Positions 1,467 to 12,739 of a DNA stretch of 14,845 nucleotides are shown piece after piece. Source of the stretch: Candidatus Eiseniibacteriota bacterium (GTDB taxonomy: Bacteria > JAFGKV01); NCBI GenBank assembly GCA_025453925.1, contig JALOPK010000042.1, positions 1 to 14,845 on the forward strand, given 5' to 3'. The notes under the pieces were generated by a model. It saw nothing but the letters and a program-made list of their open reading frames with translations, did not search any database and had not been told where the DNA came from. Position numbers and translations under genes: made by a program. Every line of letters begins with the position of its first letter. The stretch's first letter is position 1.

Positions 1467-3275
1467 ATGCGCTGCACTGCGGCGATCACAGTAACTGCCG
1501 GCGTCGTTCTCAGCCTGGGCGCGGCGTATGCCGGTGTCACCGGCGGCGTGGTGAGCTCTCAGGAGGGATTCGTCTGGAATGAGCACCACCTCTGGCGAAT
1601 CGGCCAGTCACTGGTGGAGGTGCTTTCACCCGCGGGGCACCCCCTGGCGGGCATCCAGGGCGCCTGCAAGGTGCGTGCGGGGACCCTCGCATGGAGTGAT
1701 TCCTCCCTCTATTTGCTTACCTCTCCGGCCACGGAGTACCGCTTGCCCGGGGGCCTCCCGGTCGTGGGGCTTAGGGGCGTCGTAGTGCCCCTGGAGGACC
1801 CGGTCGGGTGGACTGATGATGCGGTGTGGTCACTGGCGTCCCAATGCCGTGAGTATCTCGATGCCGCGGGAGGTCACATTGAGGGCTTGGTCGGTGCGGC
1901 TCGCAGCGGTGAACGGCTCATCGGCTGGAACAAGGGGCATGTCTACCAGATGGGGACCACCTCGCTGGAGCTGCTCGATCTCGCGCTTGAACCCATCGCG
2001 GATCTCGGCGGTATGGTGGCGACCTCAACCACTGCGTTCGGATGGAACCCTACGCACGTGTACTACCTGACCCCGGTCTCGCAGGAAGCCCTTGTCCCCG
2101 GCGGCGGAGCGCTCGGCGGGGTACGCGGAATGGTGTCCGCGGGTGAGTATGCTGTCGCCTGGACCGACAGTGGGGTATGGAAGGTGGGCCTGCCCTCCGT
2201 CAGCTACCAGACTGCGGAGGGGGGCGCCCTGGAGGGCGTGCACATGGTGTCCCGGGTACCGGGCTCGCTGGTAGCGTGTTCTGCCTCGCGCACCTGGCGT
2301 CTGACCACTCCAGCGGCAGACTACCGACACGGGGACGGGACTCCGTTGGGTGGCGTGCGGGGGCTGGCCTCCAACGATCTTTCCACTGTTGCATGGACCG
2401 CCGATGCTGCATACCAGCTTGCAGGCACCACCGCCCTCGAGTACCTGACTGCGGGCGGCGAACCAGTGGAGGGAATCCACGGAGTGGTCTGGACGAACAC
2501 CGCGTGGATCGCCTGGGGATCGGGACGAGCGTGGGTCCTCCGTAACCCCACGGTTCCCTACCGCACTGCCGCAGGCGACACCCTCTCCGGGGTGCTGGGC
2601 GTCGTGCTCGGTTCCGATCTCGTTGGAGTCTCGCGTCCTATCGCGTTCTGCCGCGACGGCCTGTTCACCCTCTCCACCGACGGAAGCGCGCTTCCCTACC
2701 TGCTCCCCGACGGTCAGTCCGTAGAGCTGGTTCCCGACGATCAGGTGGAGGAGGCTGTCGCCGTGCTCACCAGCCTCAGCCCTCTGGATGCCGACACCTC
2801 GGGATTCACCGCGGGTGTGGGACGGGCGAGCAGCCGCTCGGGGGTTGACGCCGTTGCCGTTGGATCGACATGGGCGGGCGGGTCAGGGCCGGCATCTCAC
2901 TGGTTGGTGGCGGGGTCGTCGTCGTTCGGCCTGGGTCTGCGATTCGGGGAATCGCGCAGCATCCATCTGGAGAGCACCGCATCGCTGATCTGGGTCGCCT
3001 TCGGCGGGCTTTCGGCACGAGCCGCCCCGGTCGCGTATGATCTTTCGGTTCAGCCGAATCCCTGGCGCACGGGGTTCAGAGTCTCGCTGAAGGGCGCGGA
3101 CACTGGCGCGGAAGTGGGGCTTTACGACCTCGCGGGGCGTTCGGTGGGCCATTGGCGCATCGGCGGTGACGGTGCGTGGCTGTACCCATGCCCGATTCCG
3201 CCGGGAGCCTACCTGCTAAGGGTGCGGGGCTTCGAGGGAGGTTCTGCCGCGCGCTCCCTGGTGCACCTGCGGTGA
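1467..3275 (+). CDS. Exported repeat protein: ten ~39-residue repeats plus C-terminal sorting-like domain
   Basis: 602 residues. The N-terminus (MRCTAAITVTAGVVLSLGAAYA) is a signal peptide with probable cleavage after AYA. Residues 24-421 divide without gaps into tandem units: seven of exactly 39, one of 40, one of 39, and a degenerate last unit of about 46. Each unit starts with V/L/I-x-G. Trp is at unit position 14 (8 of 9 clean copies), Trp/Tyr at position 20 (9 of 9), and Gly at positions 34 and 39. The size and pattern suggest a beta-propeller-like or beta-solenoid fold, but I do not recognise the family. After a Gly/Ser-rich region, residues from about 526 (LSVQPNPWRTG) to the end form a compact beta domain (VGLYDLAGRSV, PPGAYLLRV) of the type IX-secretion sorting/FlgD-Ig-like kind. 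It is likely a cell-surface or secreted protein. The start is supported by GGAGG six nt upstream. Confidence 0.85.
   Translation: MRCTAAITVTAGVVLSLGAAYAGVTGGVVSSQEGFVWNEHHLWRIGQSLVEVLSPAGHPLAGIQGACKVRAGTLAWSDSSLYLLTSPATEYRLPGGLPVVGLRGVVVPLEDPVGWTDDAVWSLASQCREYLDAAGGHIEGLVGAARSGERLIGWNKGHVYQMGTTSLELLDLALEPIADLGGMVATSTTAFGWNPTHVYYLTPVSQEALVPGGGALGGVRGMVSAGEYAVAWTDSGVWKVGLPSVSYQTAEGGALEGVHMVSRVPGSLVACSASRTWRLTTPAADYRHGDGTPLGGVRGLASNDLSTVAWTADAAYQLAGTTALEYLTAGGEPVEGIHGVVWTNTAWIAWGSGRAWVLRNPTVPYRTAAGDTLSGVLGVVLGSDLVGVSRPIAFCRDGLFTLSTDGSALPYLLPDGQSVELVPDDQVEEAVAVLTSLSPLDADTSGFTAGVGRASSRSGVDAVAVGSTWAGGSGPASHWLVAGSSSFGLGLRFGESRSIHLESTASLIWVAFGGLSARAAPVAYDLSVQPNPWRTGFRVSLKGADTGAEVGLYDLAGRSVGHWRIGGDGAWLYPCPIPPGAYLLRVRGFEGGSAARSLVHLR
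1536..2729 (+). repeat. Protein-level tandem repeat, 39 codons (117 bp) per unit, ~10 units
   Basis: Unit boundaries start at codons 24, 63, 102, 141, 180, 219, 258, 297, 337 and 376 of the exported protein. The period is conserved almost perfectly in length while the DNA has diverged. This suggests old internal duplication held by structural constraint, not recent slippage. The conserved skeleton is hydrophobic-x-G ... A/G-W (13-14) ... W/Y (20) ... G (34) ... G (39). Unit 7 has Cys in place of the Trp. The last unit has an insertion and has lost the Trp. Confidence 0.85.
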
Positions 3276-4035: not shown

Positions 4036-4503
4036 GTGGAAGAAACCCTTTCCGAGTTGGCGCTCCACAGTTTCAAGAAGAGCCTTCGGGGCTACAATGT
4101 GGACGAGGTCGACAGCTACCTCGAACTCATCGATCACCGGGTCCACAACCTGCAGAAGGAACTGGATGAGTTGCGAAGGGAGAACGAGGGACTCAAGTCG
4201 GAACTCCGCAAGTACCAGCGGGTTGAGAGCGCCCTGCAGGAGACCCTCGTCGAGACCAAGCGGAACGCCGAGATGATCCGCAAGACCGCCGAGAAAGAGG
4301 CGGACCTGGTACTGGAGAAGGCGGAGCAGGAAGCGACGAAGCGGGTCATGGTCGTGCAGATGGCCGTGTCCAAGCTCACGAGGGAAGTCGAGGATCTCGA
4401 ACGGCGACGGATGGACTATGTCGATAAACTCCGCAGCCTCGCCGAGCGCCAGCTCAGCCTGCTTCGGTTCTACGAAGAGGCGGACGGCCCAGGATCCACG
4501 TAG
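4036..4503 (+). CDS. divIVA: DivIVA-domain coiled-coil protein
   Basis: 155 residues. Begins with GTG at 4036, preceded by GGGGAG (4024-4029) at 6-nt spacing. The N-terminal membrane-curvature-sensing domain is unmistakable: FKKSLRGYNVDEVDSYLE at about residues 12-29. It is followed by a long charged coiled coil (ELDELRRENEGLKSEL... through about residue 145) with no transmembrane segment. DivIVA proteins assemble at negatively curved membrane (poles, septa) and recruit partners for division or polar growth. Here the context yggS-divIVA-lspA supports a cell-division/envelope role. In a diderm FCB-like lineage the exact function is uncertain. No SepF or YggT gene lies between it and yggS, unlike in Gram-positive clusters. 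Confidence 0.93.
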   Translation: MEETLSELALHSFKKSLRGYNVDEVDSYLELIDHRVHNLQKELDELRRENEGLKSELRKYQRVESALQETLVETKRNAEMIRKTAEKEADLVLEKAEQEATKRVMVVQMAVSKLTREVEDLERRRMDYVDKLRSLAERQLSLLRFYEEADGPGST

Positions 4504-4803
4504 GTGATCCGCTCCACCTGGTTCTCGCTCGGGCGCGACTGATCGCGGAACTCGACCCTGAATGCCGAACGGGTTCTGTTTTGCCCGGGTGTTGTGATGG
4601 TTTGCTGGAGCAGGAGACCTTGCCCGTGATGGAGCCGGGGATGGGTGGACGCGGCGGCGCATGCTCTCAGCGCTTGTGGCCCGGGCGCTCGCTTCGGGCT
4701 CCGCACCACACCCTTTCGCGTAGGCTCGCCCAAGGTCATCCCTTCGCATGATCATGCCCGATCAGCCGACTCTGGACCGCATCGTATCGATCGAGGCGCG
4801 GTG
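4504..4803. other. 300-bp gap with no convincing gene between divIVA and lspA
   Basis: No reading frame here has convincing coding character or a recognisable product, apart from the upstream extension of the lspA frame, which lacks any LspA homology. No tRNA-like fold was seen. Small elements present are a 5-bp hairpin GGATC/GATCC spanning the divIVA stop (4492-4510), a cobalamin-riboswitch-like B12-box word CAGGAGACC-T-TGCC at 4611-4624, and a T-box-like word GGGTGGACGCGG at 4643-4654. Neither is complete enough to call. This is the place where ileS sits in many genomes with this gene order. Confidence 0.5.
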
Positions 4804-5298
4804 ATGCGGATGATCTGGTTGCCGGGCACCGCGACCGCCGCCGCCGTGCTGGCATGCGACCAGGCCACCAAGGCTGCCGTCAGCGCCCATCTTTCGCTGT
4901 ATGAGAGCATACCGGTCATCGGCCAGGTGGTGCGCATCACTCACGTGAGGAATTCGGGGATCGCCTTCGGGCTCTCCCTCGGGGTGCTCAACGGCACGTT
5001 CCTCACGATTCTGACCGCAGTCGGCGTTGCCGCCATCGGTGTCTATCTGGTCCGCCAGAGTTTTCTGTGCGTGGGCAGATCGATGATGGTCGGGTTGATT
5101 CTGGGCGGCGCCATGGGCAACCTGTTGGATAGGTTTCGCTTGGGTGAAGTGGTGGACTTTCTGGACGTCGGCCTTCCCAATCTTCGCTGGCCGGTGTTCA
5201 ACGTCGCCGACAGCGTCGTCGTCATCGGCGTCGTGCTTCTGATGCTGGCCGACCGGCGCGACTCGCGCCCGTCGCGTCCGCCAGATACGGAAACCTGA
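4804..5298 (+). CDS. lspA: Signal peptidase II (prolipoprotein signal peptidase)
   Basis: 164 residues. Inner-membrane aspartyl protease that cleaves the signal peptide of diacylglyceryl-modified prolipoproteins just before the lipobox Cys. Visible motifs are ACDQATKAAV near the N-terminus, HVRNSGIAFGLSL (NxGxAF, residues about 50-55), GGAMGNLLDR (101-110), VVDFLD with catalytic Asp118, and WPVFNVADS with catalytic Asp136. The 18-residue spacing between the two Asp matches the family dyad. Four membrane helices are evident. The frame is open upstream to 4645, but the ATG at 4804 (GAGG at 4793-4796, 7 nt) gives the standard N-terminus; a GTG at 4801 is the alternative. A substrate is encoded in this window, the TPR lipoprotein at 9606. 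The pseudouridine synthase follows after 134 bp. Confidence 0.95.
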   Translation: MRMIWLPGTATAAAVLACDQATKAAVSAHLSLYESIPVIGQVVRITHVRNSGIAFGLSLGVLNGTFLTILTAVGVAAIGVYLVRQSFLCVGRSMMVGLILGGAMGNLLDRFRLGEVVDFLDVGLPNLRWPVFNVADSVVVIGVVLLMLADRRDSRPSRPPDTET

Positions 5299-8003: not shown

Positions 8004-8074
8004 GAGACACGCAATCGGCACGGTACGGAGTAGAATAGCTGCCGGCATGGCGCGACGTGATTGGAGGGTGTGTG

Positions 8075-8356
8075 ATGAGGCTTTCGAGATACCGTGTGGA
8101 ACGATTGGCATACTTAGTCGCGGCGAAACTGGTGAACGAGAAGCCCGTCGAACTCCGCGTGTCTCCTGACGAGGTCGAAAGCCTGATCGCCAAGGCGATC
8201 AATCTGAATCTCGAGGAGGAAGCGGCGATCGACGCCGAGGTTCGAGACCTTCTGCTCAAACACTCCGCGGTGATGATCCGCGAGGGTGTCGACCAGCGGA
8301 CCGCCTTCGTCAAAGTGAAGGCGGAACTGGCAAAGCGGAGAGGATTCGTTCTGTGA
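8075..8356 (+). CDS. DUF507 family protein (copy 1)
   Basis: 93 residues, cytoplasmic, mostly helical. It begins MRLSRYRVERLAYLVAAKL and ends AELAKRRGFVL, both features of the DUF507 family (short proteins of unknown function often found as neighbouring pairs). The ATG at 8075 is chosen over the upstream in-frame start at 8057 because GGAGG (8063-8067) lies 7 nt before it and because it aligns end-to-end with copy 2. A GTG at 8072 is a weaker alternative. It sits between the small 72-residue protein and the second copy, 28 bp before the latter. No enzymatic motif is visible. Confidence 0.88.
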   Translation: MRLSRYRVERLAYLVAAKLVNEKPVELRVSPDEVESLIAKAINLNLEEEAAIDAEVRDLLLKHSAVMIREGVDQRTAFVKVKAELAKRRGFVL

Positions 8357-8384: not shown

Positions 8385-8666
8385 ATGAGGCTCAGCGAGG
8401 AGCGGGTGCATGTGCTCGCCGCAGGGATCGTGCAGCAACTGCTGCAGGCGGAGGCGGTGGTGGCTCCGGAGAACGAGAATCTCCTCAAGCAGCGCGTGGC
8501 CTCGTGGATCATCGAGGATCTGAAGACAGAAGACGAAATCGATCGAGAGGCTCGCAGGATTCTGCGTTCCGTCAGCCGGCCCCTGGAAGAGGGGAGCGAA
8601 GAGTGGGAGATCAAGCTGCGACAAACGCGCGAGGAGCTGGCCGAGCGGCGGGGTTACGTCTTGTGA
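8385..8666 (+). CDS. DUF507 family protein (copy 2)
   Basis: 93 residues, exactly the length of copy 1. The two align without a single gap; by eye about 28 of 93 positions are identical, concentrated in the first 12 residues (MRLS..RV..LA), the middle EID.E.R..L and the C-terminal EELAERRGYVL. This is a diverged tandem duplication, probably of two subunits that work together, though the function of the family is unknown. GGGAG (8374-8378) is 6 nt before the ATG. The protein is highly charged and helical with no export signal. ridA follows 37 bp later. Confidence 0.9.
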   Translation: MRLSEERVHVLAAGIVQQLLQAEAVVAPENENLLKQRVASWIIEDLKTEDEIDREARRILRSVSRPLEEGSEEWEIKLRQTREELAERRGYVL

Positions 8667-10772: not shown

Positions 10773-11648
10773 ATGACCGTGGACATGCCTCAGGCGGGGA
10801 AGAACCCGATCCATCTTGCCATCGATCCGGCCATGGGAATGGCGGGGGACATGTTCGCGGCCGCGCTGGTCGGGTTGGGCGTGCCGGCGGACCGCGCGGA
10901 GGCACTCATGGAGTCGGCGGCCGAGCCCCTTGGCGGAGCAGAGGTGCATGTCCGCCAGGTCCAACTCCTGGAAGGGACGATTGCCTATCGCGTCTCCTCC
11001 ACGCTGCGAACTCAGCGGGAGCCGCTACGTCTCGACGAAGCGTTTGGCTTTCTCCAACAGTCCCTCCACTTCGCCCGGGTCGGCGGGCAGTATCACGATT
11101 TCGCCTCCCGTGCACTCCATGCCCTTGGCCACGCGGAGCATCATGCCCATGGCCTCGACCATCACCATGACGCGGGGGAGGGCCTTGGCGTCATGCTCCA
11201 TGAGGCGCAGGACATCGTGATGGACCTGGCCATGGCGGCATGGGGCCTGCAGTGGCTCGGCGTTGCCATGAACTCGGTGACCTGCATGACGCCGGTGCAG
11301 GTGGGTGACGGGGTGATTCGGTTCTCTCACGGCGCATTCGAGGTCCCGGCCCCGGCAACGGCGGAGATCCTGGCCCACCACGCCATACCGTGGGCGCGCG
11401 GGCCACAACGATTCGAGCAACTCACTCCGACGGGTGCGGCGATCCTGGCCGCCCTGCGGCCGCGATTCATTTCCCGGCACTCACCCCGGGTGGCGCCGCG
11501 TATTGGCGTCGGCCTGGGATCGCGGGTGACGATGCCGCCCAACGCCCTCATTCTGACCATCTCGGAGGAGCCGATGTCCGCCGCAGCAGGGGCGGTGACG
11601 CTGGCCGGTCAAACCCCTCCCCCCGGGAGCAACGGAGCGCCGCCGTGA
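10773..11648 (+). CDS. LarC-like (DUF111) protein lacking the C-terminal LarC2 domain
   Basis: 291 residues, against roughly 400 for full-length LarC, the nickel-insertion protein that finishes the nickel-pincer cofactor. LarC1 landmarks are DPAMGMAGDMFAAALVGLG (about residues 18-36), a His-rich segment (HALGHAEHHAHGLDHHHD), the HEAQDIVMDLAMA segment in the place of HEVGAVDSIVDI, FSHGAFEVPAPATAEIL, QLTPTGAAILAALRP and GVGLGSRVTMPPNAL. The protein ends right there with a Pro/Ala-rich tail. In known LarC a CTP-binding LarC2 domain follows, sometimes reached by a programmed frameshift. No LarC2-like peptide appears in the other frames before the next gene, whose GTG overlaps this stop. The metal-binding half is retained and the CTP half missing. 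The start at 10773 has no strong SD; the ATG at 10785 is an alternative. Confidence 0.8.
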   Translation: MTVDMPQAGKNPIHLAIDPAMGMAGDMFAAALVGLGVPADRAEALMESAAEPLGGAEVHVRQVQLLEGTIAYRVSSTLRTQREPLRLDEAFGFLQQSLHFARVGGQYHDFASRALHALGHAEHHAHGLDHHHDAGEGLGVMLHEAQDIVMDLAMAAWGLQWLGVAMNSVTCMTPVQVGDGVIRFSHGAFEVPAPATAEILAHHAIPWARGPQRFEQLTPTGAAILAALRPRFISRHSPRVAPRIGVGLGSRVTMPPNALILTISEEPMSAAAGAVTLAGQTPPPGSNGAPP

Positions 11649-12739
11649 AGGAGGCTCTGCTCTACGAGCGGGGAGCCGCCAGCGAGGTCCGGTGTCTTCT
11701 GTGCGCACACCGATGCCTCATCCCTCCGGGGCGGCCCGGGATCTGTCAGGTCCGCTCCAACGTGGGGGGGACGCTCTACACGACGGTCTACGGTCGGCTG
11801 GTCGCCGCGCACGTCGATCCCATCGAGAAGAAACCCCTGTATCACTTCCTCCCGGGTACGCACGCGTACTCCATCGCCACCGCCGGATGCAACTTCAGGT
11901 GCAGGTGGTGTCAGAACTGGTCCATTTCTCAGATGACGGCGGAGCGTGGGGGAGTCGAAGTGGAGGAGGCGTCTGCCGAGGAGGTCGTCCGCGCCGCCCG
12001 GGCCTCGGGATGCGCGAGCATCGCCTACACCTATACGGAGCCCACGGTCTTTCTGGAGTTTGCCCTGGACACCGCCCGTACCGCCCGTGAAGCCGGGCTG
12101 ATGAACTCCTTCGTCACCAACGGCTTCATGACCGCAGCCGCGCTCGACCTCATCACACCGCATCTGGATGCCGCCAACGTGGACCTCAAGGCGTTCAACG
12201 AGGACACGTATCGGACCTGCTGCGGGGGAAGACTTGCCCCGGTCCTCGACAGCCTCCGACGGATGAAGGGATCCGGCATCTGGGTGGAAGTCACCACCCT
12301 GCTCGTGCAGGGCATCAATGACTCCTCCTCCGAGCTGGCGCGTATCGCCGACTTTCTCGTCGAAGAACTGGGGCCCGAGACTCCATGGCACATCAGCCGC
12401 TCGCACCCCGCCTATGAGATGGGCTCGCTCACCCCCACGCCGTTACCCCGACTGGAGGAGGCGTTGCGCATAGGCCGACATGCCGGGCTTCATCATGTGT
12501 ACGTGGGAAATGCCTCCATGGAGACGCCCACCGTGTGCGCGACCTGTGGTACAGTGCTCATTCGCCGGGAGCGGTTCGAGGTCATCGCGCGCGTCCTGAC
12601 CGCCGCCGGCTCATGCCCGCGCTGCGGCGCACCGTTGGCAGGCAAGGGTCTCGAGTGGGGCGGCGACGGGCCGACGCCTGCACCATATGCTGATCACGCT
12701 GAAGGAGGAGGATGTGTCGCGGATTCTGCCACGTCTTGA
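11645..12739 (+). CDS. amrS: AmrS-type radical SAM enzyme (AmmeMemoRadiSam family)
   Basis: 364 residues. N-terminal Cys cluster CLLCAHRC...GICQVR (Cys17, 20, 24, 34), then a conserved YGRLVAAHVDPIEKKPLYHF lead-in typical of AmrS. The 4Fe-4S/SAM motif CNFRCRWCQN follows (Cys82, 86, 89; CxxxCxxC), then TYTEPTVFLEFALD, SFVTNGFM, NVDLKAFNEDTY and PWHISRSHPAYEM. The C-terminal two CxxC pairs are CATCG and CPRCG. The family resembles pyruvate formate-lyase activases; its substrate is not established to my knowledge. The GTG at 11645 overlaps the larC-like stop (GTGA), so translation is coupled. The last 30 residues (GLEWGGDG... to ADSATS) go beyond the usual CPxCGxPL ending and overlap the next gene by 26 nt. 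No amrA (AMMECR1) or amrB (MEMO) gene is in the window. Confidence 0.9.
   Translation: MKEALLYERGAASEVRCLLCAHRCLIPPGRPGICQVRSNVGGTLYTTVYGRLVAAHVDPIEKKPLYHFLPGTHAYSIATAGCNFRCRWCQNWSISQMTAERGGVEVEEASAEEVVRAARASGCASIAYTYTEPTVFLEFALDTARTAREAGLMNSFVTNGFMTAAALDLITPHLDAANVDLKAFNEDTYRTCCGGRLAPVLDSLRRMKGSGIWVEVTTLLVQGINDSSSELARIADFLVEELGPETPWHISRSHPAYEMGSLTPTPLPRLEEALRIGRHAGLHHVYVGNASMETPTVCATCGTVLIRRERFEVIARVLTAAGSCPRCGAPLAGKGLEWGGDGPTPAPYADHAEGGGCVADSATS

Follow-up and report, generated by a model that had tools for sequence, protein, structure and literature searches.

A predicted exported protein with ten tandem 39-residue units of an uncatalogued, propeller-like repeat

A single gene in the DNA examined here encodes a 602-residue protein built mainly of ten tandem repeat units, most of them 39 residues long. 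The tenfold repeat is real, and the evidence presented below supports a propeller-like repeat that is not represented in family catalogues. On balance, we favour a reading of the whole protein as an exported β-propeller that serves as a surface-held binding scaffold, with rather better than even confidence. The window, i.e. the whole stretch of 14,845 nucleotides that was analysed, corresponds to contig C361 in a genome of 3.9 Mb that is 82% complete, and the gene is an ATG-started ORF at positions 1467–3275 on the + strand.

Results

A tandem array conserved unit by unit

In a BLOSUM62 self-comparison of the protein, the score peaks at a lag of 39 residues (0.42 per residue), followed by lag 78 (0.18). 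Both values lie far above the maximum reached in 500 shuffles over lags 10–89 (−0.45). Using a unit HMM, nine full units were located at residues 25–376 of the window protein, as expected by construction since the HMM was built from them; the same HMM, built without any ortholog sequence, also finds nine units in the ortholog described below. No linker interrupts the array, which runs on the + strand as follows: unit 1 (residues 25–63; 1539–1655), unit 2 (64–102; 1656–1772), unit 3 (103–141; 1773–1889), unit 4 (142–180; 1890–2006), unit 5 (181–219; 2007–2123), unit 6 (220–258; 2124–2240), unit 7 (259–297; 2241–2357), unit 8 (298–337; 2358–2477) and unit 9 (338–376; 2478–2594). Unit 10 (377–422; 2595–2732) scores 41.8 bits against a 20-unit profile, a value that is partly circular because the profile includes unit 10 itself. 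It contains insertions of 5 and 2 residues in an arrangement that is identical in the ortholog.

The consensus of the 20 units from the two species is roughly R-G-V-V-x-x-S-x-x-x-V-A-W-T-D-D-x-V-W-x-L-x-x-P-A-x-E-Y-L-x-P-x-G-x-P-L-x-G-V. A previous sequence-only reading of this DNA had described ten units in tandem with a fixed skeleton, and its description holds. The period is far above that of shuffled sequences and the units are conserved one by one in the ortholog; the unit length is 39 residues, apart from unit 8 (40) and unit 10 (46). Trp occupies unit position 14 in eight of the nine clean copies, the exception being a Cys in unit 7, while position 20 is Trp or Tyr in all nine. Gly is found at positions 34 and 39 in eight of nine copies each, and both glycines are missing from unit 4, the least conserved unit.

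The sole ortholog found is encoded at L007 1003–2844 (−) in a genome from the same genus (G001, which includes the Candidatus Fermentibacteria contig JAFGKV010000063.1), and is 52% identical to the window protein over the repeat part. Units at the same position in the two orthologs are 52% identical on average, versus 26% for units at other positions, and 9 of the 10 units find their best match at the corresponding position; the exception, unit 4, is tied and has the lowest identity of all units (12/39). Thus, the array had its ten units before the two species diverged, with no later re-expansion, and its co-linearity in the two proteins indicates that the blade number was kept as the sequences drifted apart. 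A dN of 0.40 and a saturated dS of about 2 (dN/dS about 0.2) indicate purifying selection. The unit-specific residues conserved between the two orthologs do not pick out a single clear site. Downstream of the array, the middle region (residues 423–523; 2733–3035, +) has no family match and low model confidence, and is 51% identical between the orthologs.

The window gene and its ortholog share their flanks, namely an SDR/epimerase-type gene and a YggS-family gene. Three genomes represent the phylum in this comparison, and the repeat gene is absent from the third (G002, from a sister family). There, an epimerase-type gene is followed by a short gap and then by a 5′-truncated yggS (L019 3879–4205 (−) and 4279–5247 (−)); another, more distant YggS relative is located at a different locus. 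This layout suggests a deletion that removed the repeat gene together with the 5′ part of yggS, so the repeat gene looks dispensable in that lineage. A gain in the other genus, together with a separate truncation of yggS, could also have produced it.

Other genes were identified in the window. A radical SAM enzyme of the AmmeMemoRadiSam system (11390–12739, +; 340 bits) adjoins an ORF matching the LarC1 nickel-pincer cofactor model (10773–11648, +; 98 bits). In addition, two adjacent and similar small ORFs (8057–8356 and 8385–8666, +), ending in KRRGFVL and ERRGYVL, are apparently a tandem duplication.

Predicted fold and number of blades

Two AlphaFold models were obtained, each from a two-row alignment: model 1 of the whole window protein (mean pLDDT 55, pTM 0.53) and model 2 of the ortholog's repeat domain (mean pLDDT 66, pTM 0.63). 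Their confidence is limited, and the fold numbers given below count for the fold class only. Units 2–3 are poor in both models. The better blades of model 2 have four strands per unit, an arrangement not seen in every unit; examples are the predicted four-stranded antiparallel meanders at residues 121–125/128–132/137–141/144–147 and 276–281/286–290/294–297/301–303.

All PDB matches listed by Foldseek and VIA for both models are what we take, from their titles and general knowledge, to be propeller proteins, with Foldseek E-values down to 7e-9. For model 2, the Foldseek matches are led by the BT4663 sensor and PorZ, and those listed also include BT4673, BLIP-II (E about 1e-6) and the designed protein Ika8. 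PorZ is matched at 5e-7 and 5e-8 across the two models. Since repetitive, strand-rich blades appear in both predictions and only propellers are among the matches listed, the earlier suggestion of a propeller-like fold stands, and we consider a propeller very likely on the basis of these models. Structure prediction had also been suggested as a means to count the blades and to see whether the ring closes; at pTM values of 0.53 and 0.63, the models deliver the repetitive β fold.

With VIA, model 2 gives Z-scores up to 13.6 (5.6 Å, 240 residues aligned). Four eIF3b rows align over the greatest length (282–285 residues, spanning model residues 1..401) and with the lowest rmsd (4.5–4.8 Å; Z 11.6–12.6), the remaining rows covering 232–279 residues at 5.6–8.2 Å. 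The eIF3b propeller is nine-bladed (PMC4151992), so this best long superposition suggests that more than eight blades make up the ring, without giving their number. The ten-bladed sortilin is not among the matches listed by either program.

From these models, whether the ten units form one ring of ten blades is close to an even call, leaning slightly towards no. The most specific form of the proposal, a single closed and fairly symmetric ten-bladed bacterial β-propeller with near-regular 39-residue units of an uncatalogued, non-Asp-box repeat family, is possible yet rather doubtful. The principal alternative keeps the propeller fold and divides the units otherwise, either into two five-bladed rings or into an eight- or nine-bladed ring with units left outside it. 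Only about units 3.5–10 are confident in model 1, and these were matched to eight-bladed propellers, though at 8–9 Å. Two engineered proteins point the same way: a five-bladed WRAP fragment gave no ten-bladed ring, apparently because of strain, and Tako9 formed eight folded blades plus one unfolded. Overall, designs aimed beyond eight blades have yielded a ring of nine, a ten that collapsed, and an eight with one blade left unfolded (PMC6805158). Against a smaller ring or several rings, however, are the superposition of residues 1..401 of model 2, which is best on a nine-bladed ring, the absence of linkers between units and the equal unit count in both species. We regard such a division as a serious contender that falls somewhat short of probable.

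The repeat in family catalogues and sequence collections

The sequence-only reading had proposed a new repeat family, to be checked by profile search, and no real protein gave a significant match to a catalogued repeat family in our searches. The window protein has no significant match in Pfam, including the WD40, kelch and YWTD families, none in PHROGs, and only a weak match of its tail in NCBIfam; the ortholog likewise has no Pfam match, including these three families, and its repeat domain no NCBIfam match. The PF07494 (Reg_prop) model matches neither protein, and when used to search the genome it matched other loci and not the repeat gene. For RCC1, RCC1_2 and BLIP-II, no match to PF13540 or related profiles was found in the window protein or in the window's genome. 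A phmmer search of the PDB gave nothing credible, and Rfam has no match within the window. One candidate, PF23366 (Beta-prop_HVO_0234), was matched solely by a synthetic five-unit consensus (29.3 bits, cut-off 27). It was set aside, as the same consensus also matched unrelated families, e.g. ORF6N at 5e-5, and the real proteins have no match.

Wider searches were similar in outcome. A unit profile run against 290 genomes and an array profile run against 386 genomes both gave strong matches in the two orthologs only, with borderline matches beyond them (E 0.004–0.01). Genome contigs yielded no new relative with the single protein as query and only the G001 ortholog with a two-row alignment, while plasmids and phages (tblastn) and viral contigs yielded no new relative. 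What is new lies at the sequence level: a variant repeat, so far known from two genomes, in a fold that is very common.

Profile–profile comparison qualifies the novelty. HHalign, run on tripled unit profiles, scored 27.3 over 97 columns, in a sensible register, against the Reg_prop units of the same three genomes. This exceeds the maxima of two sets of 150 column-permuted controls (21.9 and 26.3) and the scores for RCC1 (9.8), YWTD (8.1) and kelch (8.2); YWTD and kelch are at control level and were discarded, on comparison sets that were small (as for WD40) and partly made of designed or consensus sequences. Together with the lead of BT4663 and PorZ among the Foldseek matches of model 2, this raises the alternative that the protein is a divergent member of the Reg_prop, or sensor-propeller, superfamily, which would be compatible with an exported propeller. 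Several results argue against it, in addition to the missing PF07494 match. With another set of Reg_prop units, drawn from PDB sequences, the score is only 7.9; WD40 gives 20.5 in one of the two directions, and in three families a repeat profile aligned to its own reversal reaches 22–35. Furthermore, when Reg_prop proteins are scored with the unit HMM, reversed or shuffled versions of them do at least as well. We therefore read the signal as a weak hint, a lead and not membership, and consider this alternative unlikely. The claim of a new family accordingly stands at the sequence-profile level, and the weak Reg_prop signal leaves room for a divergent branch of a known superfamily.

A fold other than a propeller, such as a β-solenoid or another open repeat array, is very unlikely: model confidence is middling and structure predictors may favour propellers for β repeats of about 40 residues, but the fold matches listed for both models are all propeller proteins. 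A degenerate RCC1/BLIP-II-type propeller, already disfavoured, is more improbable still, since the shared 39-residue period, noted by eye in the 117-nt spacing of the RCC1_2 arrays of G001, and the Foldseek match to BLIP-II are set against an HHalign score of about 10, which is at control level, and against units that lack H-S-x-x-L and W-G, the motifs seen in the G001 arrays.

The most extensive of these arrays lies in a 702-aa frame on the − strand (L070, G001:C15) with about 13 RCC1_2/BLIP-II-type repeats. L072 and L073 hold shorter arrays of the same kind, and L071 one of a 50-residue kind.

Secretion signals

A putative signal peptide was read from the translation at residues 1–22 (1467–1532, +), with Arg2, a hydrophobic core and AYA/G at residue 22/23, in agreement with what had been proposed. 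The other end of the protein (residues 524–602; 3036–3272, +) resembles a type IX secretion system (T9SS) sorting tail. The Por_Secre_tail model TIGR04183 of NCBIfam matches residues 530–588 with an E-value of 0.0035 and 17.3 bits, below its 23-bit cut-off. The earlier claim of a C-terminal sorting-like domain is thus backed by a weak match, below the level required for family assignment. The tail is located at the very C terminus and has kin elsewhere in the genome: Por_Secre_tail is found at E ≤ 0.001 in 56 places in the window's genome (G000), which makes a tail-using sorting system plausible, and in 72 and 70 places in G001 and G002, respectively. Proteins with T9SS-like tails form a large set in this candidate phylum.

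In the genome search, the PorU model gave matches up to 218 bits and none over its 420-bit cut-off, and all three genomes contain many such sub-cut-off matches. We found no literature that joins Fermentibacteria with type IX secretion. Judged from the sequence, secretion by the Sec system combined with a T9SS-like tail is likely.

Discussion

In the reading that we favour, the signal peptide would direct export by the Sec system, and the ten 39-residue units would be blades packed round a central channel and probably joined in a single large ring, for which ten blades is the simplest reading. The C-terminal tail would then bring the protein to the outer membrane or the surface of the cell and may anchor it there, where the propeller would offer a rigid scaffold for binding a ligand, either a glycan or a protein. 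Binding of this kind is proposed by analogy, because similarly placed bacterial propellers bind such ligands, and we think it fairly probable; the propeller faces of BT4663, for example, bind disaccharides (PMC5121618).

Several known systems share features with the window protein. The periplasmic Reg_prop (PF07494) sensors BT4663, BT4673 and BT3049 also consist of exported tandem blades. Sensors of the BT4663 type, however, have two seven-bladed rings and a Y_Y_Y domain (PMC5121618), and their units span 43–50 residues in the compared stretches and carry a G-x-L-W-x-G-T motif, whereas the window protein has ten 39-residue units, no kinase and no PF07494 match. Reg_prop propeller sensors are also encoded at L094 (G000:C374), L097 (G001:C230) and L099 (G001:C238); on visual inspection, L097 has a hybrid histidine kinase at its end, where L094 and L099 have GGDEF-like domains.

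PorZ, a surface component of the T9SS, likewise carries a C-terminal domain of the T9SS type after its propeller part (PMC5121618). It differs in having two seven-bladed propellers and shows no sequence match to the window protein, for which the present sequence and model data do not indicate a part in secretion like that of PorZ. The Vps10 domain of sortilin, called the only known ten-bladed propeller in 2013 (PMC3797127), would share the number of blades if the window ring closes; it is, however, a eukaryotic receptor with Asp-box blades, and no Asp-box motif is visible in our unit consensus. BLIP-II and the RCC1_2 arrays, such as L070 of G001, share the 39-residue period and the propeller fold, and differ in motif.

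Taken together, neither the fold nor the export tail is of a new kind; the protein stands out by its number of blades and by its uncatalogued repeat. So far, it tells us little about the organism's biology. The limit on the number of blades in a propeller is an open design question, for which a regular bacterial ten-unit array would make a convenient test case, and family catalogues would gain a new entry with the repeat.
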